Virus record (IMG/VR): IMGVR_UViG_3300034283_002112
Span: 1 to 57,072 of that record
Reading direction: 5' to 3' (one strand)
Length of the DNA stretch: 57,072 bases
Origin: a virus
This document shows, one piece after another, positions 33,896 through 53,759 of the stretch. Position numbers and translations under genes: made by a program. The notes under the pieces were generated by a model. That model was not told the origin of the DNA. It saw nothing but the letters and a program-made list of their open reading frames with translations, and did not search any database. Position 1 is the stretch's first letter. Each line of letters begins with the position of its first letter.

Positions 33896-33901
33896 AACAT
33901 C

Positions 33902-34210
33902 ATGGATACTGATGCCCTTGTTGCTCATGCACGAGCAAGATTTAATCATGCTGTTGCAAAACGGCTACTAAAAGAAAAATACCTGGCCAAAATGACCTTT
34001 GCTTATCGCGGTGGCATGTGGCGTGCTGGGCCTGAACTGCTGGCCGTGTTACAAACTGTGCCAGTAGAAGATGAAGTGGTTATTGTTGACTTATACGAAA
34101 ACCCTGTCAAAGTTGATCCATTAGAACTACAGCATTTGGCATTTGATCGTTGGCAAGAACAAATGAATGCCTGGCACGTGGAGTTTGAAGAAATGAGCAA
34201 ACGTCGATGA
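33902..34210 (+). CDS. Small conserved-looking phage protein of unknown function
   Basis: A 102-residue protein, likely mostly helical: MDTDALVAHARARFNHAVAK, KEKYLAKMTFAYRGGMWRAG, then VVIVDLYENPVKVDPLELQ and a C-terminal helix with QEQMNAWHVEFEEM. The compact sequence with charged helices looks like a genuine phage protein, but I know no function. It is first in the operon after the terminator, with no ribosome site, and its stop overlaps the next ATG as ATGA. Confidence 0.7.
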   Translation: MDTDALVAHARARFNHAVAKRLLKEKYLAKMTFAYRGGMWRAGPELLAVLQTVPVEDEVVIVDLYENPVKVDPLELQHLAFDRWQEQMNAWHVEFEEMSKRR

Positions 34211-35010
34211 CCACCGGCGCACTGATATTTGCATTTAACAATGAACAAACCGACTACCTTGCTATGGCTCGATGGAATGCTCGAAACATTCGTAGGCACC
34301 TTAACATTCCAGTGGCCGTGGTCACAGACCAAACAGGATCTGATATTGTGGAAGGATTTGATCACGTCATTTATGCAGACCCCAAAGCGGGAGGAACCCG
34401 TTATTTCCAGGATTATGATGCCACTGTTACGTGGCATAACGCAGGCCGAGTTGATGCTTATAGTTTGTCCCCCTGGGACCGCACACTAGTATTAGATGCT
34501 GATTATGTTGTGGCCAGTGCTGCACTGCGCAATGTAATCAACACTGATCGTGACTTTATGTGCTATCGTTGGGCCACAGACATGACCACCGGACGGGAGT
34601 TAGCAGCTCTCAACACATTTGGACGCTATCAAATGCCCATGCGTTGGGCCACAGTAATGATGTTCCGTAGATCAAACACAGCACAATACATCTTTGACTG
34701 TATGCAAATGATCCAAGACAACTGGCAACATTATCGTGATTTGTATGCTATAGACAAAAGCACATATCGCAATGATTTTGCATTGAGTATTGCCCTGGGC
34801 ATTGTAAGTGGTCACACCAACCATGTAAGTGATATTCCATGGCCCATGATGAGTGTCATGCCTGAACATACTTTAAAGCAAGTAGACGCCGACAGTTACG
34901 AGATTACATTTGTAGATGCTGACCAAAAGCCTCAAACAGTAGACTGGATTGGTTTTGATTTCCATGCCATGGGCAAACGTCATTTGGAGAATATCATTGC
35001 GTCCCGTTGA
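34207..35010 (+). CDS. GT-A-type glycosyltransferase-like protein
   Basis: A 267-residue protein that looks like a nucleotide-sugar glycosyltransferase of the GT-A fold. The N-terminus GALIFAFNNEQTDYLAMARW is a Rossmann-like first strand and helix, RRHLNIPVAVVTDQ is the second, and RTLVLDADYVV supplies a DxD (D97-D99) for metal and nucleotide binding. Downstream, FMCYRWATDMTTGRE and the acceptor side (YRNDFALSIALGIVSGH) follow, as in GT8-like proteins. The acceptor is unknown. Start and stop are coupled to both neighbours, and the following gene encodes a similar protein, so the two may act in succession. Confidence 0.65.
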   Translation: MTTGALIFAFNNEQTDYLAMARWNARNIRRHLNIPVAVVTDQTGSDIVEGFDHVIYADPKAGGTRYFQDYDATVTWHNAGRVDAYSLSPWDRTLVLDADYVVASAALRNVINTDRDFMCYRWATDMTTGRELAALNTFGRYQMPMRWATVMMFRRSNTAQYIFDCMQMIQDNWQHYRDLYAIDKSTYRNDFALSIALGIVSGHTNHVSDIPWPMMSVMPEHTLKQVDADSYEITFVDADQKPQTVDWIGFDFHAMGKRHLENIIASR

Positions 35011-35761
35011 AGAACAAGGTTACATTATTCCTGCGTTCAATGTAGACAAGATAGACTACGTTGACTGTGCTCGTACATTGGCAAAAACTTTACTGGCACA
35101 GCATCCCAAGGCACGTATTTGTTTGCTAACCAACGAACCCTATGCAGCGGACTATAGTTTGTTTGCCTACACACACGTTGTAGACATCAATCGAGAAAAT
35201 CCCTATGCCAACGACCCTTTGGTATTTGCTCAAACACCATTCCGCGAAACTATCAAGTTAGAAGCAGACATGCTGATTGCCAGTCCGATAGATCACTGGT
35301 GGACCATGTTTAGGCATCGTGATGTGGTGTTGTCTACTGGCTGCCGTAACTGGCGCGACGAAATCAGCACAGCTCGAGACTACCGAACAGTTTTTGATCA
35401 AAACAATTTGCCAGATGTGTACAATGCCATTACCTATTGGCGTCGCAGCGAAATGGCCAAAGAGTTCTTTGACACTGTGCGCAATATATTTGATCATTGG
35501 ACAGAATATCGTCGGCTCATCAAATACTCACCTGATGTACCAGATACAGATTTGGTCTACGCCATGGCTGCACAGGTCATAGGGCTCGAACTGGTTACAA
35601 TTCCGGACTCGCCCTCAATTGTACACATGAAACAAGCACATGCAGGCACAGCCACAAAAGACTGGACACAAGAATTAGTTTGGGAAATGAATCCATTGAG
35701 AATCAATACCATTGCTCAATGGGGTGCGTTTCACTATAATGTCAAAAGGTGGCAACCATGA
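34997..35761 (+). CDS. Second GT-A-type glycosyltransferase-like protein (TTG start)
   Basis: A 254-residue protein related in layout to the preceding one: GYIIPAFNVDKIDYVDCART, KARICLLTNEP, and RETIKLEADMLIASPIDHWW in the place of the DxD strand (here EAD). RRSEMAKEFFDTV and DTDLVYAMAAQVIGLELVTI follow. I chose the TTG at 34997 because GGAGA lies six bases before it and the protein-like sequence begins there; an ATG at 34949 would add 16 residues of poor quality deep inside the upstream gene. The overlap with the upstream gene is 14 bases. With Asp replaced by Glu in the metal motif, activity is uncertain. Confidence 0.6.
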   Translation: MRPVEEQGYIIPAFNVDKIDYVDCARTLAKTLLAQHPKARICLLTNEPYAADYSLFAYTHVVDINRENPYANDPLVFAQTPFRETIKLEADMLIASPIDHWWTMFRHRDVVLSTGCRNWRDEISTARDYRTVFDQNNLPDVYNAITYWRRSEMAKEFFDTVRNIFDHWTEYRRLIKYSPDVPDTDLVYAMAAQVIGLELVTIPDSPSIVHMKQAHAGTATKDWTQELVWEMNPLRINTIAQWGAFHYNVKRWQP

Positions 35762-36084
35762 TAACCCCAGATGAATTCTTTGGTGCATTGGAAAGTATGC
35801 CACAACCTCAGTCTGTGTTTTATAGACTGTATTATGAAGGCGAACGTCCACTATTCTACAGCATGGAAGACTTGCCCGGTACATACATTGAAGTTACCCC
35901 TGAACAGCATGCTCGAAGCCAAATGAAAGTGCGTATTCGCGACGGAAAGATAATTCCTATCACTTGGCAAACAGCACAAAAACTCGCACCCAGCAACGCA
36001 GGCACACTGTGCCACGCACAAGATGTTGCTATTGTTGTAAAAGAAAACGGAACCTATTGGAGCAAGAGGACTTATGAAAGTTGA
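35758..36084 (+). CDS. Small protein of unknown function
   Basis: A 108-residue protein beginning MITPDEFFGALESMPQPQSV, with FYRLYYEGERPLFYSMEDLP, GTYIEVTPEQHAR and VRIRDGKIIPITWQTAQKLA. The mix of strand and helix with several aromatic residues suggests a small folded domain. The ATG at 35758 overlaps the upstream stop (ATGA) and has AGGTGG six bases before it; a GTG three codons earlier is less likely. It ends 11 bases inside the next gene. It lies among glycosyltransferase-like genes, so an accessory role is possible. Confidence 0.6.
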   Translation: MITPDEFFGALESMPQPQSVFYRLYYEGERPLFYSMEDLPGTYIEVTPEQHARSQMKVRIRDGKIIPITWQTAQKLAPSNAGTLCHAQDVAIVVKENGTYWSKRTYES

Positions 36085-36994
36085 TATCGCAGATTTAGAT
36101 TGTATCTACCTAAGCTATGACGAACCACAAAAAGAAGAGTTTTGGATCAAGATTAAGAACATGGTGCCTTGGGCAAAACGGGTGGATGGCGTTAAGGGCA
36201 GCGATGCTGCTCACAAAGCGGCAGCACAGGCCAGTGACAGTGATAGATTCATTCTCATTGATGGTGACAATCTCCCCAACCCGACGTTTTTTAATCAGAC
36301 GCTTGTTCTTCCTAATGAAGAATACAAGAACGCTGTGTTCCGGTGGCGGGCACGTAATCATGTCAATGGACTCATGTACGGCAACGGAGGCCTAAGTTCA
36401 TGGACCCGGGAGTTTGTGATGAACATGCAAACTCACGAAGCCACAGACGGACGAGATGAAACCCAGGTAGAGTTTTGTTTTGATCCCTTGTATTGGCCCA
36501 TGCATGATTGTTATTCCACAACTTACCCTAATGGTGATGCTTTCCATGCGTGGCGTGCAGGTTTTCGAGAAGGCGTTAAGATGTGCCTGCAACGCGGTCG
36601 CAAACCCACAGTAGAAGAATTTAAAAATCAAGTGCTACGAAACTTAGACAATCTCACAATCTGGCACAACGTAGGCACAGATGTAGAATATGGTGAGTGG
36701 GCCATTGCTGGTGCACGTCAAGGCACCTATATGACCATGCTTACTAATTGGGATTATACCTTGGTGCAAAACTTTGATGCCCTGGCTGAACTATGGCTTA
36801 CAGTGAAAGACAGCCAACCAAGATTGCTCAGTAATCGCTTGGCTGAGGATTTGCACACACAATTGGATCTGCCAATGGCCATCCTAGAATGTGAACAAAG
36901 CGCATTTTTTAAACATCACTATCGTTTGAACTGGCACAATCAAGGTGTGATGATTCGAGAAATCGATGTTATTCGCAAAATAGAAGGTTGGTAA
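36074..36994 (+). CDS. Glycosyltransferase-like protein with DGD motif
   Basis: A 306-residue protein of a phage GT-A-like family. CIYLSYDEPQKEEFWIKIKN is the first Rossmann unit, then RVDGVKGSDAAHKAAAQAS and RFILIDGDNLPNP with D63-G64-D65 as the DxD equivalent. RARNHVNGLMYGNGGLSSW follows, and FHAWRAGFREGVKMCLQRGR with the C-terminal GTYMTMLTNWD completes it. A related domain ends the sequence of the repeat protein at 53758-57072, where the DGD is missing. Here the motif is intact, so catalysis is plausible. The gene overlaps both neighbours (11 bases upstream, TAATG downstream). Confidence 0.65.
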   Translation: MKVDIADLDCIYLSYDEPQKEEFWIKIKNMVPWAKRVDGVKGSDAAHKAAAQASDSDRFILIDGDNLPNPTFFNQTLVLPNEEYKNAVFRWRARNHVNGLMYGNGGLSSWTREFVMNMQTHEATDGRDETQVEFCFDPLYWPMHDCYSTTYPNGDAFHAWRAGFREGVKMCLQRGRKPTVEEFKNQVLRNLDNLTIWHNVGTDVEYGEWAIAGARQGTYMTMLTNWDYTLVQNFDALAELWLTVKDSQPRLLSNRLAEDLHTQLDLPMAILECEQSAFFKHHYRLNWHNQGVMIREIDVIRKIEGW

Positions 36995-38379
36995 TGAGCA
37001 AAGGCGATCAAAGTCGCTTCATGCGATCAGCTGAGCAAATGAAAACGGATCTCGGTCCTGCACTGTGTCTAGCCAAATGGAAGCAAGTGAGCTTTCACTT
37101 GCCCACTGGTCTCAACAACTCATGTTATCATCCGCCCTTGCACAAGATTACTGAAGCTGATCTTGCTCGTCCTGGCGGCCTGCACAACACTGATCACAAA
37201 AAGGCTCAGCGTGTGATGATGCTGAAAAATGAAAAGCCTACAGAGTGTCAGTACTGTTGGAACATGGAAGCCAACGACAAACTCAGTGACCGCCACTATC
37301 GTTCAGGAGAACCCTGGGCCGCTGTGGACTTTGAACGGATTCGCAACTCAACAGGAACCGAAGATGACGTCATACCCAGCTATGTTGAAGTTAATTTTAA
37401 CAACGCTTGTAACCTTAAGTGCAGTTATTGCTCTCCCCAGTTTAGCTCTAGCTGGGCAGACGAAGCTAACCGTTATGGCGCTTATGCTACTTCCACACCA
37501 CATAATGCTCCTGAACACTTTACAGGGTCTAGACGTGTTATACCCGCTAGGGAACACAATCCCTATGTTGAAGCGTTTTGGGATTGGTGGCCCACGCTGT
37601 ATCCTGAGCTAGAACACTTTCGCATGACCGGCGGCGAGCCCTTGATGGACAAGAATACCTATCGAGTATTTGACTATGTGTTGGATAATCCCAGTCCCAA
37701 GTTGCATCTAAACGTAACATCAAACTTCAGTGTGGAAGATGCACTGTTTGAAAAGTATCTGGGTTATACCAAACAACTATGCACACCCAACATCGAACAC
37801 TTCATGCAGTATGTGAGTCTGGATTCAGGTTCGGGTCCACAAGCCGAATACGTCAGACACGGCATGAGTGCAGAACGTGTGGTACGCAATGTCAATCGTT
37901 TCTTGACAGAAGTGCCCACTCGCAACAGTTTGACCTTTATCATTACCATGAACAATCTGGCAGTGACTGGATTTCAAGACTACATGGAATGGATCCTGCA
38001 ACTTAGACGCATACACAGCACCACCTATCAGCGTGTGTGGTTTGATACACCTGTGCTGCGAGAACCAGCTTGGCAGAGCTTGCAACTGCTGCCTGAAAGT
38101 TATGCAGTACAGCTAGAAAAGTCACGTGACTTCATGCTGGCCAACATGACCACAGAAGACAATCCCTTACACGGATTCAAAGACTACGAAGTGCAACGTC
38201 TGGAACGTGACATTGCCTGGATGCGCTCGGGGCAAAAGCAAGATCACAGTCAGGCCAAAGCAGACTTCTATCGTTTCTTTAGTGAACACGATCGTCGCAG
38301 AGGCACAGACTTTAAGAAAACGTTTCCCGAAATGGCCACCTGGTGGCACGAATGTGAATACTATGCTAGGAACACATAA
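36994..38379 (+). CDS. Radical SAM protein 1 (N-terminal Cys-rich, 'SCxHPP' type)
   Basis: A 461-residue radical SAM enzyme. Such proteins bind a 4Fe-4S cluster and S-adenosylmethionine to make a 5'-deoxyadenosyl radical. The cluster motif is CNLKCSYC (C139, C143, C146), and the SAM-binding GGE (MTGGEPLM) lies near 213. Before the core is a cysteine-rich domain with NSCYHPPLH and ECQYCWNME, probably an auxiliary-cluster or substrate-binding part. The end, SEHDRRRGTDFKKTFPEM, is shared with the proteins at 39465 and 48208, so the three form one subfamily. The ATG at 36994 has AAGG six bases upstream and shares TAATG. The substrate is unknown. Confidence 0.85.
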   Translation: MSKGDQSRFMRSAEQMKTDLGPALCLAKWKQVSFHLPTGLNNSCYHPPLHKITEADLARPGGLHNTDHKKAQRVMMLKNEKPTECQYCWNMEANDKLSDRHYRSGEPWAAVDFERIRNSTGTEDDVIPSYVEVNFNNACNLKCSYCSPQFSSSWADEANRYGAYATSTPHNAPEHFTGSRRVIPAREHNPYVEAFWDWWPTLYPELEHFRMTGGEPLMDKNTYRVFDYVLDNPSPKLHLNVTSNFSVEDALFEKYLGYTKQLCTPNIEHFMQYVSLDSGSGPQAEYVRHGMSAERVVRNVNRFLTEVPTRNSLTFIITMNNLAVTGFQDYMEWILQLRRIHSTTYQRVWFDTPVLREPAWQSLQLLPESYAVQLEKSRDFMLANMTTEDNPLHGFKDYEVQRLERDIAWMRSGQKQDHSQAKADFYRFFSEHDRRRGTDFKKTFPEMATWWHECEYYARNT

Positions 38380-39478
38380 ACTCGTTGTAGATGAATGGGC
38401 TGAAACCTGGGACCTACTGAAGCTGTATGCTGACAGCAGTTTTTGGCGCTGGTCAGATGTGGACTTTGATCCTGCATGTCGATACATTGTGGGACGAACT
38501 GTGCTCAAAGACAACTGGGCTAGTATCACTGCTCTGGCCACACAATGGCCTGGCCGCATTGTGTTTTCAAACCCTGCTGAGGGATCGGAAACAATAAAAT
38601 TACAGTTACAGCGGCTACGTATCACAGACTATGTGAGTGACGGGCGTATAGGACTGCTGACATCTGGCGACTTAGAACCTGGCATCAACTACTGCAAGAC
38701 TGATTGTTATTTCACAAACATTGTGGAATACACAGAAAACAAAGCAGCACAGTTACAAGCGGCTCTAGACTATAAGTCACACAGGCCCTATGAATTTCTT
38801 TTTTTAAATGGCCGACTGCGCCCGCATCGCAAGTATCTAATAGATCATATGAGAGTACAGGGCCTGCTGACTCATGCACTGTGGACCAATCTCAGCAGTC
38901 GTGTGGAAATGGCGTTTACTTCTCGGTTAGACACAGGCAAAACAGAACGCATTAGACTGCTGCCCCCAGAATACGAAATAGAACGTGCTAGGGAAAGATT
39001 AACTCCTGATCTTTACACTGACAGCGGATTCATCAAACACAAGCTGTTCAACAACACCTGGGGCGATGCCATTGTAAATCCACGCTGCTACACAGATACC
39101 TGGTTCAGTCTAGTGACAGAAACCATTTATGATTACCCGCATACTTTTAGAACAGAAAAGATCTGGAAACCCATTTTAATGGCACACCCATTTGTGGTAG
39201 CTGCCAATCGGGGCTACTTGCGAGACTTACGCAACGCAGGATTTAAAACGTTTGGTACACTGATAGACGAAGGGTATGATCAAATTGATTGCCCAAGCAC
39301 ACGAATAGAGTGTATAATAGATACAGTGTGTGGCATAAGCGAATCGGGCGCTGCTGAATTCTGGGAAGCCTCACGCGACATTTGTAAATACAATCAGCAA
39401 CGTCTCGTAGAGTACAACCGTGAACAACGTGCTCTATTGCCACAACATCTACTAACTTATCTCAATGAACGATCTTGA
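38363..39478 (+). CDS. Glycosyltransferase-like protein with TEKIWKP motif
   Basis: A 371-residue protein of the same broad family as the two encoded at 51485-53759. Hallmarks are the C-terminal segment SLVTETIYDYPHTFRTEKIW, KPILMAHPFVVAAN, and YLRDLRNAGFKTFGTLIDEG with a final YDQI; the Glu-Lys and Pro-Phe-Val features resemble the sugar-nucleotide side of GT-B or exostosin-like transferases. YEFLFLNGRLRPHRKYLID lies upstream of this. The ATG at 38363 overlaps the radical SAM gene by 17 bases; an earlier in-frame ATG at 38207 would extend it into a low-quality region. The glycosyltransferase label is an inference from layout, not proof of activity. Confidence 0.6.
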   Translation: MLGTHKLVVDEWAETWDLLKLYADSSFWRWSDVDFDPACRYIVGRTVLKDNWASITALATQWPGRIVFSNPAEGSETIKLQLQRLRITDYVSDGRIGLLTSGDLEPGINYCKTDCYFTNIVEYTENKAAQLQAALDYKSHRPYEFLFLNGRLRPHRKYLIDHMRVQGLLTHALWTNLSSRVEMAFTSRLDTGKTERIRLLPPEYEIERARERLTPDLYTDSGFIKHKLFNNTWGDAIVNPRCYTDTWFSLVTETIYDYPHTFRTEKIWKPILMAHPFVVAANRGYLRDLRNAGFKTFGTLIDEGYDQIDCPSTRIECIIDTVCGISESGAAEFWEASRDICKYNQQRLVEYNREQRALLPQHLLTYLNERS

Positions 39479-40796
39479 ATTTCGCCAGCAAGTGCTGGAC
39501 ACAATCAGTCCCAGTTTTTGTGGCGCAAAGTGGTTTAATGCTACCATTTGGCTTGGTAGCGGCATGAGCACCAGCTGCCACCATCCGCCAGCTCATTTGG
39601 TGGACATTGATAAAGTCACTACCAACCCTAAGCTGCTGCACAATACACCGCAAAAGAAAGACGACCGTGCACGAATGATTGCAGGTGAACGTCCTGCAGG
39701 CTGTGAATACTGCTGGAAGATAGAAGACATGGGTCGTGACGCTGTGAGCGATCGTGTTTACAAAAGCAAAATATATCCCATAGAGGCCTTGCATGAAGCT
39801 AGAAATACACCCGCAGATCGGGACGTTAACCTCCGTACTCTGGAAATTGCTTTCGATCGTACTTGCCAGTTTGCTTGTAGTTATTGCAATCCTGCTTTTA
39901 GTAGCACATGGGTTAAAGATATTAGGAATAACGGACCCTACAGCAGTCTTGTTAGTGACGGTCGTAATCACTTTACACACGAGCACTCAAGCGCTCAACT
40001 GTATCGTTTCGGGGAGACCAATCCGTATGTTGAAGCGTTTTTTGCATGGTGGGAGTCGGATCTACATCTTACACTACAGGAGCTCAGAATCACCGGAGGG
40101 GAGCCCCTCATGTCCGGACACACCTGGAAGCTGATTGACTGGTTCCGCAACAATCCAGGACGCAGCCGCACACGCCTAGCCATTAACTCAAACCTAGGTG
40201 CTGATGTAGACGTAGATCGTTTACTAGATTCAATACAGGGACTAGATGTAGATATCTATACCAGCCAGGAAGCTGTGGGTACTCAAGCTGAATACATACG
40301 TGATGGCCTGGACTATGCCGCCTGGCAAGCCAACGTAGAAAAGATCTTGACCAGCGGTCGTGTACGCACCTTGCACTTTATGGGCACAATCTCAGCACTG
40401 TGCTTGCCTAGCTTGACTGATCATTTGCGTTATCTACTAAAATTAAAGCAACGCCACGGACGTGACGCAGTAAGTTACACACTGAACATCTTGAGATTCC
40501 CCAGCTTTCAAAGTGCCTTGGTCATGCCACATAGCCTACGTGCCCGCTTTGTTGCAGAACTAAAAGAACTGCACTACCGCAATCAGCACAATCCTTTGTT
40601 TCATGAGCATGAGCTGGATCATGTACAAAGACTGATTGACTATTTGGACGTGGTCGAAACTCCTCATTCGGAAGCATTTGACATGCCTCGCTTGCTAAAC
40701 GACTTTTGTGAGTTTTTCTCACAGTATGACCAACGCCGGGACAAAGATTTTGCCACAACGTTTCCTAAATTAAAAGAATGGTACCAATCACTATGA
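39465..40796 (+). CDS. Radical SAM protein 2 ('SCxHPP' type)
   Basis: A 443-residue radical SAM protein of the same subfamily as the one at 36994. The cluster motif is CQFACSYC (C134, C138, C141), with ITGGEPLM as the GGE. The N-terminal Cys-rich domain has FCGAKWF, SCHHPPAHL and GCEYCWKIED. The C-terminus reads FCEFFSQYDQRRDKDFATTF, then PKLKEWY, matching the shared end motif. The start at 39465 overlaps the upstream gene by 14 bases and the stop forms ATGA with the next. The residue after the first cluster cysteine is Gln rather than the Asn common in its relatives. Its substrate is unknown. Confidence 0.85.
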   Translation: MNDLEFRQQVLDTISPSFCGAKWFNATIWLGSGMSTSCHHPPAHLVDIDKVTTNPKLLHNTPQKKDDRARMIAGERPAGCEYCWKIEDMGRDAVSDRVYKSKIYPIEALHEARNTPADRDVNLRTLEIAFDRTCQFACSYCNPAFSSTWVKDIRNNGPYSSLVSDGRNHFTHEHSSAQLYRFGETNPYVEAFFAWWESDLHLTLQELRITGGEPLMSGHTWKLIDWFRNNPGRSRTRLAINSNLGADVDVDRLLDSIQGLDVDIYTSQEAVGTQAEYIRDGLDYAAWQANVEKILTSGRVRTLHFMGTISALCLPSLTDHLRYLLKLKQRHGRDAVSYTLNILRFPSFQSALVMPHSLRARFVAELKELHYRNQHNPLFHEHELDHVQRLIDYLDVVETPHSEAFDMPRLLNDFCEFFSQYDQRRDKDFATTFPKLKEWYQSL

Positions 40797-45608: not shown

Positions 45609-46629
45609 AATAGATCTCCGCGGCAACAACGGAGATTGTCTAACTGTGTATATCAATGTGCATGACAACAGTTTGAGTCGTAAATGGTTGGCGGCTCTCA
45701 ATGATATTATTCGTAACCAACTGCATCTAGAAAAGAACTATTGTTGGATGGGCTGGACTGAGCATGATCGCAACTTAGAATATCTTTGCACACAAGTCAA
45801 TCGCAGTATTCATGCAATCAACAGCAGCGATTTAGATTATCGTATACAAGATTTTTTCAGTCCTGCCAACGTAGTACAAAAAAATCTCGATGTCAATCAT
45901 GATAAAATGAATCATCTACATCGTTATTTTGAAGACCTGCAAGGAACTTCGGGTGCAATGAGCAGGTACTACACAGCCGCAGACGATCACACACGTTGGC
46001 ACATACGCCAATTAAATTTACTGTGTCATGAAATAGAAAGTCTTGTGCTCAGCATGCGTAAAGATGTACAAGCACCCGAATGGAAGCGCCCCAGTCAGTT
46101 GATGTGCTGGCTCAATGCCCCGCGTTTTGTGCTAGAACAACAAGACTATGAGTTGTTTGGAGTTGACACTATTAACCGTAGGCTTGGCGGTGTGTATGTG
46201 GGTGTGAACAAAGCAGTGGGCAAGCATCATTGGGAAGTGTTCAACGACGAAGGCCGCGACAGTCGCATCGGCGAACTTGTCACAACATCACTAAAAGCAC
46301 AGACCGAAGCTGCGGGAGATTTTGATATTGAGTGGGCACGTGATCCCGGCGCTTACTCTTGGCAAATTGCAAAGATAACAGAATTCCGTGAGTGGCTTGT
46401 TGCCAACGGGTTTGATCCCGAAGACAAGAGTCTTACCATTGGTCATCCGCAGGTTGGGCAAATTGATCTTGTTAGGTCGTTTGGCACTGATGATTATCAA
46501 GAAATATGGCGCCAGCTGTCCACCAAATTGGATGTGTATAAAATACGCACATCCGTTGTCGAAGCTACATACAGCTACCGCTGGAGCAATCCAGACTATG
46601 CAGAACAACAGATAAGGGCATTAAAATGA
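45595..46629 (+). CDS. Protein of unknown function in the radical SAM operon (TTG start)
   Basis: A 344-residue protein that I do not recognise. Its N-terminal part has IDLRGNNGDCLTVYINVHDN and KWLAALNDIIRNQLHLEKN, then WMGWTEHDRNLEYLCTQVN. A second region has AADDHTRWHIRQLNLLCHEI, and later RFVLEQQDYELFGVDTINRR and GVYVGVNKAVGKHHWEVFND; His/Glu/Asp-rich stretches could bind metal, but no known motif is complete. I chose the TTG at 45595 because GGTGGA (45583-45588) lies six bases before it and no ATG is suitable. It lies between radical SAM protein 5 and the 33-residue gene, so it may be a partner. Confidence 0.65.
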   Translation: MESIEIDLRGNNGDCLTVYINVHDNSLSRKWLAALNDIIRNQLHLEKNYCWMGWTEHDRNLEYLCTQVNRSIHAINSSDLDYRIQDFFSPANVVQKNLDVNHDKMNHLHRYFEDLQGTSGAMSRYYTAADDHTRWHIRQLNLLCHEIESLVLSMRKDVQAPEWKRPSQLMCWLNAPRFVLEQQDYELFGVDTINRRLGGVYVGVNKAVGKHHWEVFNDEGRDSRIGELVTTSLKAQTEAAGDFDIEWARDPGAYSWQIAKITEFREWLVANGFDPEDKSLTIGHPQVGQIDLVRSFGTDDYQEIWRQLSTKLDVYKIRTSVVEATYSYRWSNPDYAEQQIRALK

Positions 46630-46727
46630 AATGGATTAAACGTATTTGGGATCGTATTCAAATGGAAATTCGCTATCGTAAAAAGCTAAAAGAACTGCGC
46701 AAACGAGACCCGTTTATCTACAAATGA
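46626..46727 (+). CDS. 33-residue basic protein
   Basis: A short frame coupled at both ends by ATGA. The product is MKWIKRIWDRIQMEIRYRKK followed by LKELRKRDPFIYK, a strongly basic amphipathic helix with a Trp-rich start and an aromatic end. Its exact fit between two genes, with no spare bases on either side, supports expression. It could bind nucleic acid, a membrane or a partner enzyme; I know of no demonstrated function. It is too short to assign to a family by eye. Confidence 0.6.
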   Translation: MKWIKRIWDRIQMEIRYRKKLKELRKRDPFIYK

Positions 46728-48211
46728 ACATACTAGGAATTTCAGCAGGATTTCACGACGCTGCTGCCACTGTGATTAACCGTGAAGGCAATATTCTTTT
46801 TGCTGGACATAGTGAACGCTACAGCAAGAAAAAGAATGACTCAGAATTATGTTCTTCTTTAATAAGTGAACTGGAACAGTACAATCCCATTGACACAGTG
46901 GCCTACTATGAGCGTCCTTGGACCAAACAACTGCGACAATGGTATGCCGGGCAGGGTATAGAGTGGAACAAACTTACTGTACGTGGCGTAGTGCATGATC
47001 AAATTGGCCATGCACACTGGCAGGACCTACAACATTATCACAACTACAACCATCATCTATGTCATGCAGCAGCAGGTTTTCAAACATCGCCTTATGATCG
47101 TGCCACAGTGGTGGTAATAGATGCTGTGGGCGAATTTGAAACAATAACAATATGGGGAGCAGAATATGATCGAAATGGTGTGGCAAAGTATAAAAGACTT
47201 TGGTCTCGGCGTTATCCACATTCAATTGGACTGTTCTACAGTGCAGCTACTAGCAGCGTTGGCCTGCGGCCACTAGACGAAGAATACATCTTAATGGGTA
47301 TGGCTGCTTACGGCAGCTCAGAACATAATCTAACACTGCAAAAAAAGCTAGTAAGTGATACAGTGAATATTAAATTCCGTGAAAATCTACACACAGGCAT
47401 AGACAGTAAACACCTAGCTGACATGACAGACTATGACATTGCTGCCAGCGCACAATACATTGCAGAAAATCTAATCAACAATGTCATGTGCAGAGCACGT
47501 GATTTTAAGTGGTCCAACAATTTGGTATACATGGGCGGTGTTGCTCTTAACTGTAGTGCCAATCGTAACCTAGGGAAGTTTTTTGATAACATATGGATTA
47601 TGCCTTGCCCTGGCGATGCTGGTTCTAGCCTGGGCGCTGCTGCCCTGGCTTGGGGTAAAAGAGTTAAATGGACTGATGCTTATCTCGGACATGATATCGC
47701 TGGTGACTATCCTGTTGATGATATTCTCAATCATCTGGTATCTGACCTCATTGTTGGTGTTGCTAGCGGCCGCGCTGAGTTTGGCCCTCGTGCACTAGGA
47801 AATCGTAGCTTGCTGGCCGATCCACGGGGCGAGCGTATCAAGGACCAAGTAAATGCAATCAAACGACGACAAAAATTTAGACCTTTTGCCCCTGTTATTT
47901 TGGAGGAACATGCTGATATGTACTTTGATATGCCTAGGGGTTTCAGTAACAGTAGGTATATGCAAGTCATCGCTCGTTGCAGGCATCCTCACATATTTCC
48001 TGCTATTGTTCATGCTGACGGCACTAGTCGTGTACAGACTGTGCCGCGAGATGCAAGCGGAATTAGGCAACTGCTGGAAAAGTGGTACGTAATGACTGGG
48101 TGTCCCATGCTGCTGAATACCAGCTTGAACATTCGCGGTGAACCCATGGTCAACGATCGCAAGGACGCAGACAGATTTGAAACACTGTATGGTGTCAAGG
48201 TTTGTTCATGA
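46724..48211 (+). CDS. Carbamoyltransferase (NodU/CmcH/TobZ family)
   Basis: A 495-residue O-carbamoyltransferase candidate that would transfer carbamoyl from carbamoyl phosphate, through an adenylate, to a hydroxyl on a sugar or natural product. The ASKHA N-terminal part starts MNILGISAGFHDAAATVINR; the metal-binding HHLCH is at residues about 110-114, DAVGEFETITIWG follows, and MGGVALNCSANRNL lies near 270. The C-terminal family signature ARAEFGPRALGNRSLLADPR-like (here beginning GRAEFGPRALGNRS, residue about 349) and FRPFAPVILEEH are complete. TobZ-type enzymes are around 570 residues, so this one is compact. It has ATGA overlaps on both sides. In NodU-like pathways the acceptor is a sugar, which fits the many glycosyltransferase-like genes here. 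Confidence 0.85.
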   Translation: MNILGISAGFHDAAATVINREGNILFAGHSERYSKKKNDSELCSSLISELEQYNPIDTVAYYERPWTKQLRQWYAGQGIEWNKLTVRGVVHDQIGHAHWQDLQHYHNYNHHLCHAAAGFQTSPYDRATVVVIDAVGEFETITIWGAEYDRNGVAKYKRLWSRRYPHSIGLFYSAATSSVGLRPLDEEYILMGMAAYGSSEHNLTLQKKLVSDTVNIKFRENLHTGIDSKHLADMTDYDIAASAQYIAENLINNVMCRARDFKWSNNLVYMGGVALNCSANRNLGKFFDNIWIMPCPGDAGSSLGAAALAWGKRVKWTDAYLGHDIAGDYPVDDILNHLVSDLIVGVASGRAEFGPRALGNRSLLADPRGERIKDQVNAIKRRQKFRPFAPVILEEHADMYFDMPRGFSNSRYMQVIARCRHPHIFPAIVHADGTSRVQTVPRDASGIRQLLEKWYVMTGCPMLLNTSLNIRGEPMVNDRKDADRFETLYGVKVCS

Positions 48212-49473
48212 CTGATAGAGTGTTTCCCATCAAGAGTGACACTGCTTGTTTGTTGAAGTGGGCCTGGTCAACAGTATACCTAGGTCAAGGCACAAGTTCC
48301 AGCTGTCATCGTACTGATCAAGCGCCTATACCTCCGGACAACTTTGCAAGTTTTCACAACTTGCCCAACAAAGTAGCAGCACGAAAGCAAATGCTGGAAG
48401 GCACATGGCCACAAGGCGGATGTCAATACTGCGAAAAGATCGAGCAAGCAGGTGGTATGAGCGATCGACAATATCAACTCCGAGCCGGACACGAAGCTGA
48501 TCGTACTCCTGAAGAGTTGTTGACAGATCCCACTGCTACAGAAGTTGTACCCACTATCTTGGAAGTCTATTTCAACAACACCTGTAACATGGCCTGCTTG
48601 TATTGCGGATCACACTTCAGTACCAAATGGGAAGAAGAAAACAAACGGTTTGGTGTGTTTGAACAAGGGCGTGTTAAGTTTGGCTATAATCAACCAAGCA
48701 ATCCCAACTACAATCAAATGCTGGCAGACTTCTGGCAGTATCTTCGAGACAAAGATCGTTATCGCCACATACGCTACTATCAGATCCTAGGTGGTGAACC
48801 TTTCTTTCAACCAGAATTTGACACCAGCTTGGATTTTTGGGAAAGTCATCCTAACCCTGAACTCACATTCAATATCATTACCAACTTGAAAGTGCCCACA
48901 AAGAAGTTCCGTGCGTACATAGATCGCTTTGGGGCAATGGTCGAGTCAGGTGCTCTCAAACGTCTGCAAATAACTGGCAGTTTGGATGCCTGGGGTCCGC
49001 AAGAAGAATATGTACGCTGGGGACTTGACCTAGCTGAATGGCAAGAGAACTGGGAATACTTGTTGGATAAAGACTGGGTGGTCATGTGTATGAATACTGC
49101 TATATCTGCACTGACAATTAAAACATTGCCTGACTTGGTGGAACGTATCAACGGGTGGAACGCACGCCGTAACCCTTGGAACCCTATCAGCTTCAGTTTC
49201 ATGAGTGTGATGACACCGCCTGAAATGGTTCCAGACATATTTGGTGCAGGTGTGTTTGACGCAGACTTTGAACGTGTGTTAGCAGCCATGCCTACAGACA
49301 AACCTGGGTCTCTAGACGCACGTGAACACATGGCAGGTATTATGCAACAGATACAAGCAGGGCCACGCGATCAGAGTCGCATAGAAGATCTAAAGGTTTA
49401 CCTAACTGAAATAGATCGACGCCGAGGAACCGATTGGAAACAGTTATTTCCGTGGCTTGCAGAGCTCAACTAA
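48208..49473 (+). CDS. Radical SAM protein 6 ('SCxR' variant of the HPP type)
   Basis: A 421-residue radical SAM protein. The N-terminal domain has CLLKWAWSTVYLGQGTSSSC followed by HRTDQAP, and GCQYCEKIEQAGGMSDRQYQ; the core has CNMACLYC (C126, C130, C133) and ILGGEPFF. It ends with EIDRRRGTDWKQLFPWLAEL, the motif shared with proteins 1 and 2. The ATG at 48208 overlaps the carbamoyltransferase stop as ATGA with AAGG seven bases before it. Its last 30 bases overlap the last 30 of the minus-strand gene at 49444, tail to tail. It closes the plus-strand operon. Its substrate is unknown. Confidence 0.85.
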   Translation: MTDRVFPIKSDTACLLKWAWSTVYLGQGTSSSCHRTDQAPIPPDNFASFHNLPNKVAARKQMLEGTWPQGGCQYCEKIEQAGGMSDRQYQLRAGHEADRTPEELLTDPTATEVVPTILEVYFNNTCNMACLYCGSHFSTKWEEENKRFGVFEQGRVKFGYNQPSNPNYNQMLADFWQYLRDKDRYRHIRYYQILGGEPFFQPEFDTSLDFWESHPNPELTFNIITNLKVPTKKFRAYIDRFGAMVESGALKRLQITGSLDAWGPQEEYVRWGLDLAEWQENWEYLLDKDWVVMCMNTAISALTIKTLPDLVERINGWNARRNPWNPISFSFMSVMTPPEMVPDIFGAGVFDADFERVLAAMPTDKPGSLDAREHMAGIMQQIQAGPRDQSRIEDLKVYLTEIDRRRGTDWKQLFPWLAELN

Positions 49474-50472
49474 ACTGGCGTTGAACTGTATGCGATCTGC
49501 GTAGAGCACATGACTCGTACGCAGATTTTCTATTGCCGCCGAGTGTTTAGAATGTGCAGGGTTGACAACGTCTTGTACAGCAAAGTTAGACCATGTGCCC
49601 CAATCTTCGAGTCTGTTGACTACCCCGTCAAACCCAAAGTCAACACACAGCTTGCAGAAGTTTTGCACGTCATGATGGTTGGCTTGTTGAAATACAAACT
49701 TCAACAGCACTTCTGACTTGGTACGTTGTTGTACCAACTTCAGCCACTCTAAGTTACGCATCAGCACATCCCAGCGTCCAGGTCTGCGTACATTGTGATA
49801 CACTTCTGTAGAGCCTGCGTCTATGCTGATAAAGTATTGTGTAATGTTGTCTAGTATAGGACTGTTGCTTAATTGCTTTTCCATCAGCAAACCATTGGTA
49901 AACAGTCGTATGGTTTGTTGCGGAGTAGGCTGGAACTCACGGATCAGCGGACGCATAATAGAGCTTGCTAGTGGATCGCCGTTGCCCGACATAACAATGT
50001 GACACGGCTCTTCAAACTGCTCCAGCAATCTGCGCATGTGTTGCACCTGTGCTAGCTTGCGTTCATAGTCTGGGCCTTGTGAAACCATGATAGCATCGCT
50101 GCGGCAACTAGGGCAAGCTAGATTGCAACTTTCGTCTATGTTGATGCTGACAACATAGCGAGTATCAAATAAGTCTTGGTTTCTAACACCACAACGATCT
50201 ACAGCACAGTGTGTGAAACGGCCATCTACAATGTCTTGTTGTAAGGCTTGTGCTGTAGGATGTGCCCATACATCCGCTAGGCGATCAAAATCAGTGATCT
50301 GACCAGGACTAACAGGCAACCATGCCTCACAGCCGCATACAAAACAATCCCCTTTCCAGTCTACTACCAATTGACGACTAGGTGCATTGCAGCGGTAGTC
50401 TATGGTGTAGCCCAGTTGCGCATTGCGCGGGATTGAATTGTAGGCATGCTGATTGGCAATCGGGATGATCAT
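49444..50472 (-). CDS. Radical SAM protein 7 (minus strand, variant SAM-binding motif)
   Basis: A 342-residue radical SAM protein encoded opposite the other six. The N-terminal domain has YRCNAPSRQLVVDWKGDCFV and a CGCEAW pair, then HCAVDRCG; the core has CNLACPSC (C116, C120, C123). In place of GGEP it has MSGNGDPLASS, a form seen in some other radical SAM families. SIDAGSTEVYHNVRRPGRWD and LKFVFQQANHHDVQNFCKL follow, close to SPASM-type peptide or sugar enzymes. Its ATG shares ATGA with the amidinotransferase stop upstream. It is more divergent than the others, so a different substrate is likely. Confidence 0.8.
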   Translation of the reverse strand: MIIPIANQHAYNSIPRNAQLGYTIDYRCNAPSRQLVVDWKGDCFVCGCEAWLPVSPGQITDFDRLADVWAHPTAQALQQDIVDGRFTHCAVDRCGVRNQDLFDTRYVVSINIDESCNLACPSCRSDAIMVSQGPDYERKLAQVQHMRRLLEQFEEPCHIVMSGNGDPLASSIMRPLIREFQPTPQQTIRLFTNGLLMEKQLSNSPILDNITQYFISIDAGSTEVYHNVRRPGRWDVLMRNLEWLKLVQQRTKSEVLLKFVFQQANHHDVQNFCKLCVDFGFDGVVNRLEDWGTWSNFAVQDVVNPAHSKHSAAIENLRTSHVLYADRIQFNASLVELCKPRK

Positions 50473-51488
50473 AGATATGACTCTAGACTACCACGACGAC
50501 GTAGATCCTGGGTACAGCAGCTGATGCCGCCGTCCCAGAAGTAGCTGTGACGCAACTCACTTATAATCGGATTGATCCGATGCTTCTTACAATAATCAAA
50601 CACCTGCTTGTTATAAGCACTGAAGATTACGTTCTCTTCGTCCAACACAAGACAGTTAACGTCAAAAACTGTCTCTGCTACGAATCCAGTCCATTTGTTT
50701 AGATAAGTGTCCACAAAGTCTGTGAACTCAGGCGTAGGGGTTTGTCCTTGCACGTACCAAGCACCAGGGTTAGATTCGTACTTGAACTTGCCAACTTCCA
50801 TGGCGGCCCAGATACTTGGGTCCCAAATCTTGCACACATCCCAACCAGGGAAATCACGTGCTAGATCCAAGTTAACATCGTGCTTGGAACTCAACAGCAC
50901 ACCAGGCTTGAGAATAGCAAACACAGCATCGCCGTGTCCGTCTGTGATGGCTTCGTGAATACGATATTCAGGACCCAGTACGTTATCCACTATCCAACGG
51001 GTTTGTTCGGGCTTTAAGAAGTCTGAGTTGTCAAAGAATACATCGCGGCCCACACGCACAATACAGCTGGCACTTGCACCATTTAGAATGCAGTCTTTGT
51101 CCCACTCGCTCTTGTGTGGGTTGATTATTTGATCTTTGTACTCAGCACAGATGGTATCTAACTCTTTCATGTTGAGCACACGCAACAGTTTGTTGCCCAG
51201 TGTGATTTGCCAATCTCTCGGAGTCAGTGGTGGCAGCGGAGCACCACCACCTTCAGTTTGAAACCATACAAACTCGTCCTTGGGTCGAACATCGGGTCTG
51301 CGTACTCGGGCACCGTATTGCTCAATGGTCCGTTGTAGGTTGTCAAGATCCTCTTCTGTTTCATGCAAGATCTGTTGCATTTGATTGCGAACTTGAGGAT
51401 TGTCAATGAAGTCAAAGTAATCTGCTGGGTAGGCACTGCCCACAATAACTTCTTCTAAAGGTTGCCAAGATGTGTAACTGTTGATCAT
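50469..51488 (-). CDS. Amidinotransferase (arginine:glycine/inosamine amidinotransferase-like)
   Basis: A 339-residue enzyme of the GATM/StrB1 family, which moves an amidino group from arginine to an amine, forming a guanidino compound. It begins INSYTSWQPLEEVIVGSAYP, has GASASCIVRVGRDVFFDNSD, then the catalytic His in TDGHGDAVF (H185) and the nucleophile in GGISCCTQDLRR (C324; the usual GGIHC has Ser for His here). YFWDGG precedes it. The length is close to the usual 340-390. The ATG at 51488 overlaps the upstream stop as ATGA, so I rejected a longer frame starting at 51641. The acceptor amine cannot be deduced; glycine, an aminocyclitol or a lysine-like group are the known types. Confidence 0.85.
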   Translation of the reverse strand: MINSYTSWQPLEEVIVGSAYPADYFDFIDNPQVRNQMQQILHETEEDLDNLQRTIEQYGARVRRPDVRPKDEFVWFQTEGGGAPLPPLTPRDWQITLGNKLLRVLNMKELDTICAEYKDQIINPHKSEWDKDCILNGASASCIVRVGRDVFFDNSDFLKPEQTRWIVDNVLGPEYRIHEAITDGHGDAVFAILKPGVLLSSKHDVNLDLARDFPGWDVCKIWDPSIWAAMEVGKFKYESNPGAWYVQGQTPTPEFTDFVDTYLNKWTGFVAETVFDVNCLVLDEENVIFSAYNKQVFDYCKKHRINPIISELRHSYFWDGGISCCTQDLRRRGSLESYL

Positions 51489-52654
51489 ATGTTTAATTGT
51501 GCGAATAAAGTATTTAGGCGTTGAGTCTTGCTGGCGGCAAATAAACGCTGGTTGTGTACAATATCGTTCCAGCAACTGGCATACCAGGCTTGCATGTCTT
51601 GCGACTGTATTTGCTGTATAGCACGTCGAGCAGCTTGCCAACGTTGTGTGTTGTTGGGTATGACATCGTAGAAATTGTCTATGGCATGATCAAACGTTCT
51701 ATAACCCAGGTTGCGCAGAGTGCTTAAACTTCCCTGTGGTCCTATGATCACAAACGGATGTCCGTTTTTCAGTGCTTTGAATGTTTTTTCAGTAAGGAAT
51801 GTGCCGCCGCTGCCGTCTGCGTCAAAGTGTGTTTCTAGTATGATGCTGCAATAGCTGCTGACATAATGTTGCGATACTGTAAGGCTGTGGTCATTGTGCT
51901 GGTCCGCAGTCAAGTCATCACAGACCTTAGGTCTGTGGCTCATAAACTTCCCAACATCCACTCCTGGTTGATGTTCTATAGGGTTGTCTTGGGGATCATC
52001 ACCTAGCGGCAGTTCTGTATTGTAGCTCCACAAGCTGTGATCCAACACACCTATTTGCTGTAGTTCTGCCATTGCACTGGCACGCCACCATTTGTGTGTG
52101 CGACTCAATGCCAAGAACTCATGTTGCCTTGCTGTTTGATGTTGTATTACTAGTCCTTGGCTACGGTTTCTACGCCAGTACAGCAATTCATGGTCGGGAA
52201 AATACACAAAGCCAGGAACGCCATGTGCTGCGGTATTGCCTGAAACAAAGCGATAGCAATTGCTAGACAAGCAATGGCGGTCGCACAGTTTGTCCAGTCG
52301 GTATTTGATGGTATGTGGATTATCGCCTTCATGATAGTAGAACACGATAGTAACTGTGCCTTGACGCACATCATGCATGATGTTGTTGTCGATCAAGGCA
52401 AAGTAATCTATAGTGAAATCAAAGAATCCCAGTCCTATCACATACATGCCTCTGCCTTTGGTCACTAGTTCATATTCAACACCGTGGTCATCCATGTGCC
52501 CAAACAATTCAGCGGGAGTAGTATGAGGCCAATGTTGACCAAATTCTCTCCAGGCCTGAGTGTAAGGTCTTGCTTGGTGTTGGGCCAATGCTGGGTAAGG
52601 TCTGCCCTTGATTGTGCGGTCAACCCTGAATTTCAATGCTGTTAAGCATGTCAT
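51485..52654 (-). CDS. Glycosyltransferase-like protein (TEKTFKALKNGHPF type)
   Basis: A 389-residue protein of the same family as those at 38363 and 52620. The C-terminal part shows SSYCSIILETHFDADG, TFLTEKTFKALKNGHPFVII, then GPQGSLSTLRNLGYRTFDHA and a YDVI. The middle has YFPDHELLYWRRNRSQG and EFLALSRTHKWWRASAMAEL. The start at 52654 gives a 35-base overlap with the upstream gene; a TTG at 52636 would shorten it by six residues, and neither has a clear ribosome site. The glycosyltransferase role is inferred from GT-B-like layout. It precedes the amidinotransferase, with an ATGA overlap, so the pair may act on the same glycan. Confidence 0.6.
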   Translation of the reverse strand: MTCLTALKFRVDRTIKGRPYPALAQHQARPYTQAWREFGQHWPHTTPAELFGHMDDHGVEYELVTKGRGMYVIGLGFFDFTIDYFALIDNNIMHDVRQGTVTIVFYYHEGDNPHTIKYRLDKLCDRHCLSSNCYRFVSGNTAAHGVPGFVYFPDHELLYWRRNRSQGLVIQHQTARQHEFLALSRTHKWWRASAMAELQQIGVLDHSLWSYNTELPLGDDPQDNPIEHQPGVDVGKFMSHRPKVCDDLTADQHNDHSLTVSQHYVSSYCSIILETHFDADGSGGTFLTEKTFKALKNGHPFVIIGPQGSLSTLRNLGYRTFDHAIDNFYDVIPNNTQRWQAARRAIQQIQSQDMQAWYASCWNDIVHNQRLFAASKTQRLNTLFAQLNI

Positions 52655-53759
52655 TTAGTTCGTCCCAAAGTATCTTTTCAAATGCACCGCCGTAGAAATG
52701 ATTATAATTGTGTTCTACGATTTCTCTGGCTTGGTGATGTAAATCTTGGCGTTGTTGTATGGTCATGCTGTCTAGAGATTTCAAAACGGTAGCAATTTTT
52801 TCTATCCTGATTTGATCATTGGACTCGTTGTCATAGCTTTCGTCCCAGAGCTTGCTGAAAGTTTTGAATCCATATCTTTGTAGATAAGCAAGGCTGCCTT
52901 TTGTGCCAACAATCACAAAAGGCATTTGTAGACAAATGGGTTTGAAAGTTTTTTCAGTGATATGTAAACGTTGGCCTGAAGCAACAGTTTCTGTCACAAG
53001 ATACAACAGACTGTCTGCTGATTGATCAAACAAGCTGAGCCAGCATGAGTGCATGGGAAAACCAGTTTCTCCAGCAAACTCAATTGGTAAATCAACTTGA
53101 TTGAACACATCCTCAATATCAGGGTACGCAGTTTTTAGCGGCTGGGCTGCATCACCAATAGAGATACCTTCAGCAGGACACACCGCAGGGCAACTAATAT
53201 GATTGTCAGTCATACCTAGTTTAAAAATCCAGTACAGCATTTCTAGTCTATGATGTCTCATGCCTGCTACAATGCGATTTGGTGCAATAAATGTCTTGGT
53301 CGGCGTTCTATCTTTGGGATCAGCTATTAAAAACGTTTTGTCGTATCCTCTATACCAATCTAGTGCTGCCCATCCGTGAAAGAAATAGTATAGAGGTTTC
53401 CATCCGTAAAATTGACACATATGATCTACAGACTCACTTTCGAACTCACTGGTAATTAGATATCCAGTTTTGGTCAACCTTCTGTTTTTATTGGTCGGAA
53501 TACCATCTTCATCGAAATTTAGATCAGCGTTTGATTGATCCACATGCGCAAATGTTTGCATGTGTATGTTCAAATGTATTGGCTCTTGGTCAAATAAGAA
53601 TATATAATTGTGTTCGTGCACTTCGTCACTGCCATAGTTAGCTACGCTGTCAGGATCGCTTCGCCCAAACGGATCGCAGAAAAACACCCTAAAGCCAGGA
53701 CGATTTTTTTGTATCCAAGGCCAGAAGGTATTGTTGTAAATTTCGTCTATTCTAATCAT
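52620..53759 (-). CDS. Glycosyltransferase-like protein (TEKTFKPICLQMPFVI type)
   Basis: A 379-residue protein, first of the minus-strand operon. It starts MIRIDEIYNNTFWPWIQKNR, with YIFLFDQEPIHLN and TSEFESESVDHMCQFYGWKP. The C-terminal domain has YLVTETVASGQRLHITEKTF, KPICLQMPFVIVGTKGSL, AYLQRYGFKTFSKLWDESYD. This is the third copy of the TEKxxKP family in the window. Its ATG at 53759 overlaps the ATG of the divergent repeat-protein gene by two bases (CATG), so the promoter must lie inside that gene's coding sequence or far upstream. The reaction is inferred, not proven. Confidence 0.65.
   Translation of the reverse strand: MIRIDEIYNNTFWPWIQKNRPGFRVFFCDPFGRSDPDSVANYGSDEVHEHNYIFLFDQEPIHLNIHMQTFAHVDQSNADLNFDEDGIPTNKNRRLTKTGYLITSEFESESVDHMCQFYGWKPLYYFFHGWAALDWYRGYDKTFLIADPKDRTPTKTFIAPNRIVAGMRHHRLEMLYWIFKLGMTDNHISCPAVCPAEGISIGDAAQPLKTAYPDIEDVFNQVDLPIEFAGETGFPMHSCWLSLFDQSADSLLYLVTETVASGQRLHITEKTFKPICLQMPFVIVGTKGSLAYLQRYGFKTFSKLWDESYDNESNDQIRIEKIATVLKSLDSMTIQQRQDLHHQAREIVEHNYNHFYGGAFEKILWDELNDMLNSIEIQG

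Follow-up and report, generated by a model that had tools for sequence, protein, structure and literature searches.

A fixed-order gene cassette of a jumbo phage lineage with radical SAM enzymes, an amidinotransferase, a carbamoyltransferase and a microprotein: a candidate pathway for amino-sugar glycan tailoring

Positions 33902 to 53759 of a 57,072-nucleotide viral fragment (IMG/VR record IMGVR_UViG_3300034283_002112, the whole of which is called the window below) carry a dense cassette of genes for radical S-adenosylmethionine (SAM) enzymes, an O-carbamoyltransferase, an amidinotransferase and glycosyltransferase-like proteins. The locus probably represents a phage-encoded pathway for the tailoring of an amino-sugar glycan in a lineage of jumbo myophages, a reading to which we assign a probability of about 60%. 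The argument draws on a core of genes kept in fixed order among related phages, on the enzyme families of their products, and on amino-sugar genes next to the cassette in its relatives. The core also includes a previously unannotated gene for a microprotein of 33 amino acids, which adjoins the carbamoyltransferase gene.

Conserved core of the cassette and its enzymes

Relatives of the cassette were collected as 80 viral loci anchored on the amidinotransferase and 80 anchored on the radical SAM enzyme R4, all from contigs of uncultivated viruses, which reach 364 kb; an aquatic origin of the contigs can only be guessed from their data-set numbers. Some of these contigs are near-duplicates, and the counts of loci are not all independent. 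Among the 54 loci spanning the plus-strand block, 51 hold all eight of the genes for R1, G1, R2, R3, R4, R5, U45 and the carbamoyltransferase, and their order is identical in all 51 complete loci. This block is followed by a minus-strand trio encoding the amidinotransferase, G2 and G3, and then by a divergent gene referred to as 'big'; as judged from the amidinotransferase-anchored loci, a carbamoyltransferase lies within 10 kb in 78 of 80 cases. Co-occurrence in related phages, which the original prediction had named as a check, is thus borne out, and the synteny rules out a chance accumulation of independent acquisitions. Variable slots between the core genes harbor GDSL hydrolases, FkbM methyltransferases, hexapeptide acyltransferases, epimerases or further radical SAM genes, and the SGNH-like gene at 42487, R6 and R7 are accessory rather than core in the window. 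The enzymes and associated proteins of the cassette are the following.

36988..38379, plus strand: R1, N_Twi_rSAM, core (profile and motifs)
38207..39478, plus strand: G1, glycosyltransferase-like, core, likely start 38363 (motif)
39465..40796, plus strand: R2, N_Twi_rSAM, core (profile and motifs)
40778..42490, plus strand: R3, N_Twi_rSAM with an N-terminal extension of ~170 amino acids, core (profile and motifs)
42487..43125, plus strand: SGNH-hydrolase-like, accessory slot (GCSHT and DxxH motifs only)
43106..44323, plus strand: R4, N_Twi_rSAM, core (profile and motifs)
44304..45608, plus strand: R5, N_Twi_rSAM, core (profile and motifs)
45595..46629, plus strand: U45, core, modeled as a cyclophilin-like part with an inserted helical bundle (predicted structure)
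46626..46727, plus strand: microprotein MKWIKRIWDRIQMEIRYRKKLKELRKRDPFIYK, 33 amino acids, core (conservation and coding signal)
46724..48211, plus strand: Nol/NodU/TobZ-like O-carbamoyltransferase, core (Pfam and structure matches)
48202..49473, plus strand: R6, N_Twi_rSAM, accessory (profile)
49444..50472, minus strand: R7, N-terminal SPASM and radical SAM core, not N_Twi, accessory (profile)
50469..51641, minus strand: AGAT/StrB1-like amidinotransferase, core, likely start 51488 (PDB matches and conserved residues)
51485..52654, minus strand: G2, glycosyltransferase-like, core (motif)
52620..53759, minus strand: G3, glycosyltransferase with a GT-B fold by model, core (predicted structure)

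The predicted number of seven radical SAM genes, six on the plus and one on the minus strand, is confirmed by an intact CxxxCxxC motif in all seven products, with the SAM motif reading GGEP in six and NGDP in the seventh. The six plus-strand open reading frames (ORFs) match the NCBIfam family N_Twi_rSAM (NF033640) over nearly the full profile with 408, 339, 308, 286, 277 and 228 bits, against a curated cut-off of 170 bits, while R7 scores only 27.9-33.8 bits, is not a member and fits other SPASM families better. The cysteines of the N-terminal auxiliary cluster (C9, C27, C74 and C77) and those of the radical SAM motif (C123, C127 and C130) are invariant among 30 diverse relatives, which, for the metal-cluster residues, removes the concern, raised at the outset, that catalytic residues might prove non-conserved within their families. 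The N-terminal auxiliary domain is similar (E = 1.6e-4) to a twitch domain that the aminocyclitol dehydrogenase BtrN carries at its C-terminus. Between phages, R1 to R5 each show a median identity of 67-73%, yet they share only 19-28% with R4 inside the window, suggesting that they are separate orthologues, each probably with its own task. Fourteen long contigs (159-364 kb) contain 7-21 N_Twi_rSAM matches each. In two relatives, two radical SAM units are fused in one ORF, the second being of the R5 type (L018:18382-20820, minus strand; L098:13357-15813, plus strand).

The carbamoyltransferase was correctly predicted to be of the NodU/TobZ type: it contains both Pfam domains (Carbam_trans_N, E = 3.5e-35; Carbam_trans_C, E = 1.6e-47) and the Kae1-like HHxxHA metal motif, in the form HHLCHA, and it matches the structures of decarbamoylnovobiocin carbamoyltransferase, GdmN and TobZ. 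With 135 bits against the NodU equivalog NF041651, which requires more than 1000, it belongs to the same superfamily but is not NodU itself. The amidinotransferase has no Pfam match; its PDB matches are AGAT, the StrB1-type inosamine-phosphate amidinotransferase and SxtG (E = 1e-12 to 1e-15), and also HsvA. Conserved across 131 sequences are C375, H236 and D238 of a His-x-Asp motif, and R142-D143 as a PRD-type Arg-Asp pair, residues that are catalytic in this family; they include the His and Cys originally claimed.

A view on the neighboring genes shows that an epimerase acting on nucleoside diphosphate (NDP) sugars and a DegT/DnrJ/EryC1/StrS aminotransferase (Pfam E = 7.6e-65) follow just past 'big', outside the window, in 63 of 65 relatives. 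Ten relatives of 317-364 kb contain two to five epimerases and exactly one carbamoyltransferase each. Similar partners recur elsewhere, also in independent loci. One relative (G009) encodes a second amidinotransferase paralogue (34% identity; L311:2460-3515) beside a cytidylyltransferase/PfkB kinase pair resembling a split HldE (4011-5106), another (G003) a sugar C-methyltransferase, a UDP-sugar dehydrogenase-like protein and a cupin, and in S-SCSM2R the amidinotransferase follows KdsA/KdsB. A contig binned with a gammaproteobacterial metagenome-assembled genome (MAG; L303, 52-7999) shows in one row a GT7 glycosyltransferase with a lectin-like domain, an N_Twi-like radical SAM enzyme, the microprotein, an SGNH-like protein, a carbamoyltransferase, a sulfotransferase, an epimerase and a dTDP-sugar isomerase. 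It is because of this gene company that the amidino- and carbamoyltransferase are placed on an amino sugar.

The six genes originally described as glycosyltransferase-like are of unequal standing, and none of their products matches Pfam. G3 models as a two-domain GT-B glycosyltransferase (predicted local distance difference test score, pLDDT, 76.5): the 50 structural matches listed are all glycosyltransferases of many kinds or close kin, the best among them being T4 beta-glucosyltransferase (Z = 11.6, root mean square deviation 5.8, 288 residues aligned). A TEKTFKP-type motif is common to G1, G2 and G3 (genes 38207, 51485 and 52620), whereas the other three candidates show DxD-like motifs only. 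The SGNH hydrolase is likewise recognizable by its GCSHT and DxxH motifs but has no Pfam match; it occurs in 14 relatives, and similar slots elsewhere hold other GDSL proteins. The confident model of U45 (pLDDT 88.1) contains a cyclophilin-like part with borderline similarity (Z = 8.5, root mean square deviation 3.5, 143 residues aligned), and the protein has no Foldseek match in the PDB at E <= 0.001. The related viral models of U45 are all uncharacterised, one being from Agrobacterium phage Atu_ph07. A U45 fusion, as suggested by a viral model of 768 amino acids containing U45, occurs in none of the fetched loci.

The pathway proposed from these families would start with the conversion of an NDP-sugar to an amino sugar by an epimerase/dehydratase and the DegT/StrS-type aminotransferase; the amine of this sugar would be turned into a guanidine by the amidinotransferase. 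Further changes to the sugar, by oxidation, deoxygenation, epimerisation or rearrangement, would fall to the five core N-twitch radical SAM enzymes. Carbamoylation at an oxygen would be the task of the carbamoyltransferase acting with the microprotein, and transfer of the units to an acceptor that of enzymes of the GT-B and GT-A types. The accessory slots would contribute methyl, acyl or further groups differing between phages, a variation that fits a surface glycan exposed to pressure to diversify.

A microprotein adjoining the carbamoyltransferase

The ORF at 46626-46727 was overlooked in the original prediction. It fills the sole intergenic gap of the locus, with ATGA overlaps with the U45 and carbamoyltransferase genes on either side, and it is found between these two genes in 133 of 138 U45 loci. 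Its C-terminus, RKRDPFIYK, is near-invariant, and among 71 distinct microproteins W3, Y17, L21, E23, D28, P29, I31, Y32 and K33 vary hardly or not at all. Codon differences concentrate at third positions (14.6, against 6.7 and 4.0), and all eleven records checked have exactly one copy. Viral contigs scanned for the pattern yielded at least 80 loci, and among those listed nearly all encode proteins of 33-51 amino acids ending in RDPFIYK; 53 of the listed matches are followed by at least 1.7 kb of sequence, with a carbamoyltransferase gene within 1.7 kb in 48 of them and within 15 nucleotides in 34.

The carbamoyltransferases adjacent to the microprotein form one clade (support 100/99), apart from seven cyanophage and pelagiphage enzymes that lack it, and the microprotein thus appears, from these sequences, to mark one clade of viral carbamoyltransferases. 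The enzyme of isolate C48C1 falls inside the clade on a long branch and has no visible microprotein; the long branches leave its exact placement unsure. No microprotein was seen near the carbamoyltransferase genes of C48C1, HTVC008M, S-CAM1, P-SSM2, S-CAM8, Mosig, S-SSM7, P-RSM4 and SynMITS9220M01, and a tblastn search of isolate phages gave no match, probably as a result of masking by the low-complexity filter. A diverged copy (SDPYIYEE) was recognized by pattern in the marine virus AG-345-D19. Among genome contigs, the pattern is limited to four MAG contigs, two of which, assigned to Marinimicrobia (L300/L301), have the same kind of primase and helicase genes as lie beside the microprotein in viral contigs and look like misbinned phage DNA; a bacterial origin of the microprotein was rejected on these grounds.

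The simplest reading is that the microprotein serves as a small subunit or adaptor, and a function as carrier or substrate is possible. A more far-reaching proposal would have this carbamoyltransferase clade depend on the microprotein as a partner, carrier or scaffold, with the RDPFIYK tail binding the carbamoyltransferase or other tailoring enzymes of the set and the N-terminal helix a membrane or protein surface, and would at the same time have the radical SAM amino-sugar line of the jumbo phages yield a guanidino- and carbamoyl-bearing product new to biology. Taken as a whole, we regard this combination as speculative and rather unlikely.

Genomic position, acceptor and competing explanations

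The cassette lies directly after baseplate genes of the gp53-, gpV- and gp25-like types, and a protein of 1147 amino acids encoded at 12305 shows ~34% identity to baseplate wedge proteins of jumbo phages such as 121Q, PBECO4, CBB, Munch and Phosso. Because of this adjacency, a virion protein of the tail or capsid is considered the most likely acceptor, followed by a host surface glycan and, in third place, by DNA. The same baseplate region contains an ORF of 4860 amino acids (15748-30330, plus strand). The remaining features of the locus are listed below.

33850..33869, plus strand: intrinsic terminator hairpin ending the baseplate operon (scan and conservation)
33867..33895, plus strand: sigma-70-like promoter, TTTACT-17-TATACT, with the -10 element a few bases from the ATG (scan and conservation)
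33902..34210, plus strand: small conserved first gene, 102 amino acids (ORF call and conservation)
34207..35010, plus strand: glycosyltransferase-like, DxD-type motif only, conserved in 42 relatives
34949..35761, plus strand: glycosyltransferase-like, phrog_1903, DxD-like motif only
35749..36084, plus strand: protein of 111 amino acids (ORF call and conservation)
36074..36994, plus strand: glycosyltransferase-like, LIDGDN (DxD-like) motif only, unusually conserved at 76% mean column identity
53758..57072, plus strand: 'big' conserved protein, cut by the window end and followed by the aminotransferase and epimerase genes in relatives; no match in the PDB or in isolate phages

The hairpin is retained with paired base changes in 16 of 21 intergenic stretches of relatives, and a TATAnT -10 arrangement before the first ATG (33902) in about 12 of the 21. 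The terminator overlaps the promoter (33850-33904) and the -10 element almost reaches the ATG, suggesting that the cassette mRNA is probably leaderless; with its own promoter behind a terminator, the cassette appears to be a separate transcription unit. Leaderless -10 motifs occur at chance level across the whole window, and the one at 33890 is credited only because of its conservation. General promoter and terminator scans within the locus stayed at or below chance, and T4-like late promoters were rejected, with TATAAATA observed 45 times in the window against 46 expected. Nearly all gene overlaps measure 2-35 nucleotides when the likelier starts of G1 and the amidinotransferase are used, close to the predicted 1-35, but gene 34949 overlaps its neighbor by 62 nucleotides as called, or by ~47 from its first internal ATG.

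Directly established are the gene content, its conservation and order, the catalytic motifs, one GT-B model and the coding conservation of the microprotein; several points weigh against the reading as glycan tailoring. Every reaction, the reaction order and the acceptor are inferred. The aminotransferase/epimerase pair lies outside the window, and its presence in the window's own genome is deduced from relatives. The match to BtrN is limited to the auxiliary domain, and radical SAM enzymes with twitch or SPASM domains act more often on peptides than on sugars. The position aligned with Asp254 of human AGAT is occupied by a residue other than Asp in the amidinotransferases of the window and its relatives, in a part of the alignment that is itself uncertain; because this residue is missing, the chemistry may differ from that of AGAT, which leaves the activity uncertain and qualifies the original assignment. 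Given the cassette's own sigma-70-like promoter, its coupling to the late virion genes is uncertain. Finally, in many marine viral contigs (L178, L191, L195 and others) the microprotein-carbamoyltransferase pair apparently lies, as judged from gene lengths, between a primase and a replicative helicase, and some of these contigs encode a shorter carbamoyltransferase of ~310-336 amino acids.

The strongest competitor differs from glycan tailoring of the virion in the acceptor only, since the glycan would be added to the lipopolysaccharide (LPS)/O-antigen or capsule of the host, blocking other phages or releasing progeny. The similar island of pelagimyophages has been interpreted in this way (PMC7029224). 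Acyl, methyl and epimerase functions in accessory slots are typical of O-antigens, the promoter sets the cassette apart from the virion genes, the N-terminus of the microprotein resembles a membrane-surface helix on inspection, and a PagP-like gene lies near the radical SAM cluster of Vibrio phage K566. We consider this remodelling of the host envelope a real but minority possibility, given that the window's locus has yielded no gene for a flippase, polymerase or ligase and that a position next to the baseplate genes is equally expected under virion glycosylation.

Attachment of the modified sugar to a modified genome base, possibly 7-deazaguanine, is improbable. DNA keeps some weight as acceptor because of QueD- and QueE-like ORFs recognized by sequence inspection in the relatives G009 and G003 (L310:10760-11314 and 13664-14518; L313:12729-13235 and 18002-18877), which possibly represent a separate DNA modification by the 7-deazaguanine pathway, and because of the marine replication-operon context, seen also in a marine MAG contig where the pair is flanked by genes for a primase and a DnaB-type helicase. 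The best structural match of G3 is a DNA glucosyltransferase, but its GT-B similarity is general, extending to glycosyltransferases of many kinds. A thymidylate-synthase-type deoxynucleoside monophosphate hydroxymethylase (PF00303) is found in none of the ten relatives of 317-364 kb, which speaks against the route via hydroxymethyluracil or hydroxymethylcytosine only, and the cassette follows baseplate genes in the company of amino-sugar genes and variable acyl/methyl slots. The original prediction of a decorated glycan or small molecule is therefore strongly backed on the side of the sugar by the aminotransferase/epimerase neighbors and accessory genes, whereas its nucleic-acid branch is disfavored.

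It is also doubtful that the radical SAM enzymes act on virion proteins or on the microprotein, as in pathways to ribosomally synthesized and post-translationally modified peptides (RiPPs) or with the microprotein as scaffold, with the glycosyl-, carbamoyl- and amidinotransferases acting on the same peptide. Such a role would suit the common peptide specificity of SPASM/twitch enzymes and the small conserved peptide with its invariant C-terminus in the operon, and amino acids could equally bear amidino and carbamoyl groups. Yet some phages keep the microprotein and carbamoyltransferase without a nearby radical SAM gene related to those of the window, the C-terminal half of the microprotein is nearly invariant, unlike the usual RiPP core, the window's locus shows no peptidase or transporter, and the co-conserved aminotransferase/epimerase genes indicate sugars. 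A diffusible aminoglycoside-like compound made during infection is very improbable despite the resemblance of the StrS-, StrB1/AGAT- and TobZ-like enzymes and the BtrN-related twitch domain to aminoglycoside pathways, as no resistance or export gene is seen in the window's locus and a diffusible antibiotic would be of little benefit to a lytic phage.

Relation to known systems and biological meaning

Radical SAM clusters in structural regions of phage genomes are already known, the nearest reports found being those on pelagimyophages (PMC7029224) and Aeromonas phage 332-Vera (PMC12390700). Pelagimyophage islands in the structural region contain glycosyltransferases, sugar enzymes and radical SAM cassettes (PMC7029224), and LPS gene clusters have been described as well (PMC3037559). 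The present cassette resembles the hypervariable island of pelagimyophages and cyanomyophages in its location within the virion-gene region and in these gene types; the pelagimyophage island is reported to vary and to lack synteny, however, whereas here the eight core genes keep their strict order and are joined by the amidinotransferase and microprotein genes. In the jumbo phage 332-Vera (Chimallinviridae), a large cluster of structural genes includes eight radical SAM genes, called "highly unusual" by the authors, but the phage belongs to another phage family, and the text of its paper mentions neither carbamoyl- nor glycosyltransferases (PMC12390700). Pelagibacter phage Mosig EXVC030M encodes a DegT-type aminotransferase, a MoaA-like protein, a carbamoyltransferase and a methyltransferase in a row, but its carbamoyltransferase belongs to another clade and lacks the microprotein. 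The isolated Vibrio phages K566 and K567 (255 kb) share a cluster of N_Twi-like radical SAM genes, represented in K566 (L304, 12007-18749) by three annotated genes and one weakly matching ORF; the identities are only 22-26%, and inspection of 25 kb of K566 revealed neither a carbamoyl- nor an amidinotransferase. Aminoglycoside pathways combine the same enzyme families (StrB1, TobZ, StrS-family aminotransferases and BtrN), but the present cassette is phage-borne and has far more radical SAM enzymes. Mycobacteriophages carry phage-encoded glycans on capsid and tail tube (Freeman et al., 2023, cited in PMC12619734), and the passage concerned is silent on chemistry of the radical SAM, carbamoyl or amidino kind. 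No description of this cassette or of N_Twi_rSAM in phages was found in the open-licence papers that could be searched; within that literature, a fixed core that combines an amidino- and a carbamoyltransferase with amino-sugar neighbors and the microprotein appears undescribed.

Sugar and radical SAM genes without explanation abound in phage genomes, and here dozens of giant-phage contigs share a fixed set of them in one strict order. Amino-sugar tailoring by this set predicts a specific and testable chemistry, namely an amino sugar that bears a guanidine and a carbamate. The microprotein, which is easily missed by minimum-length cut-offs in annotation, offers a simple handle on the workings of the viral carbamoyltransferase. 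If the glycan coats virions or hosts, the cassette would bear on how these phages evade defence systems and competitors.

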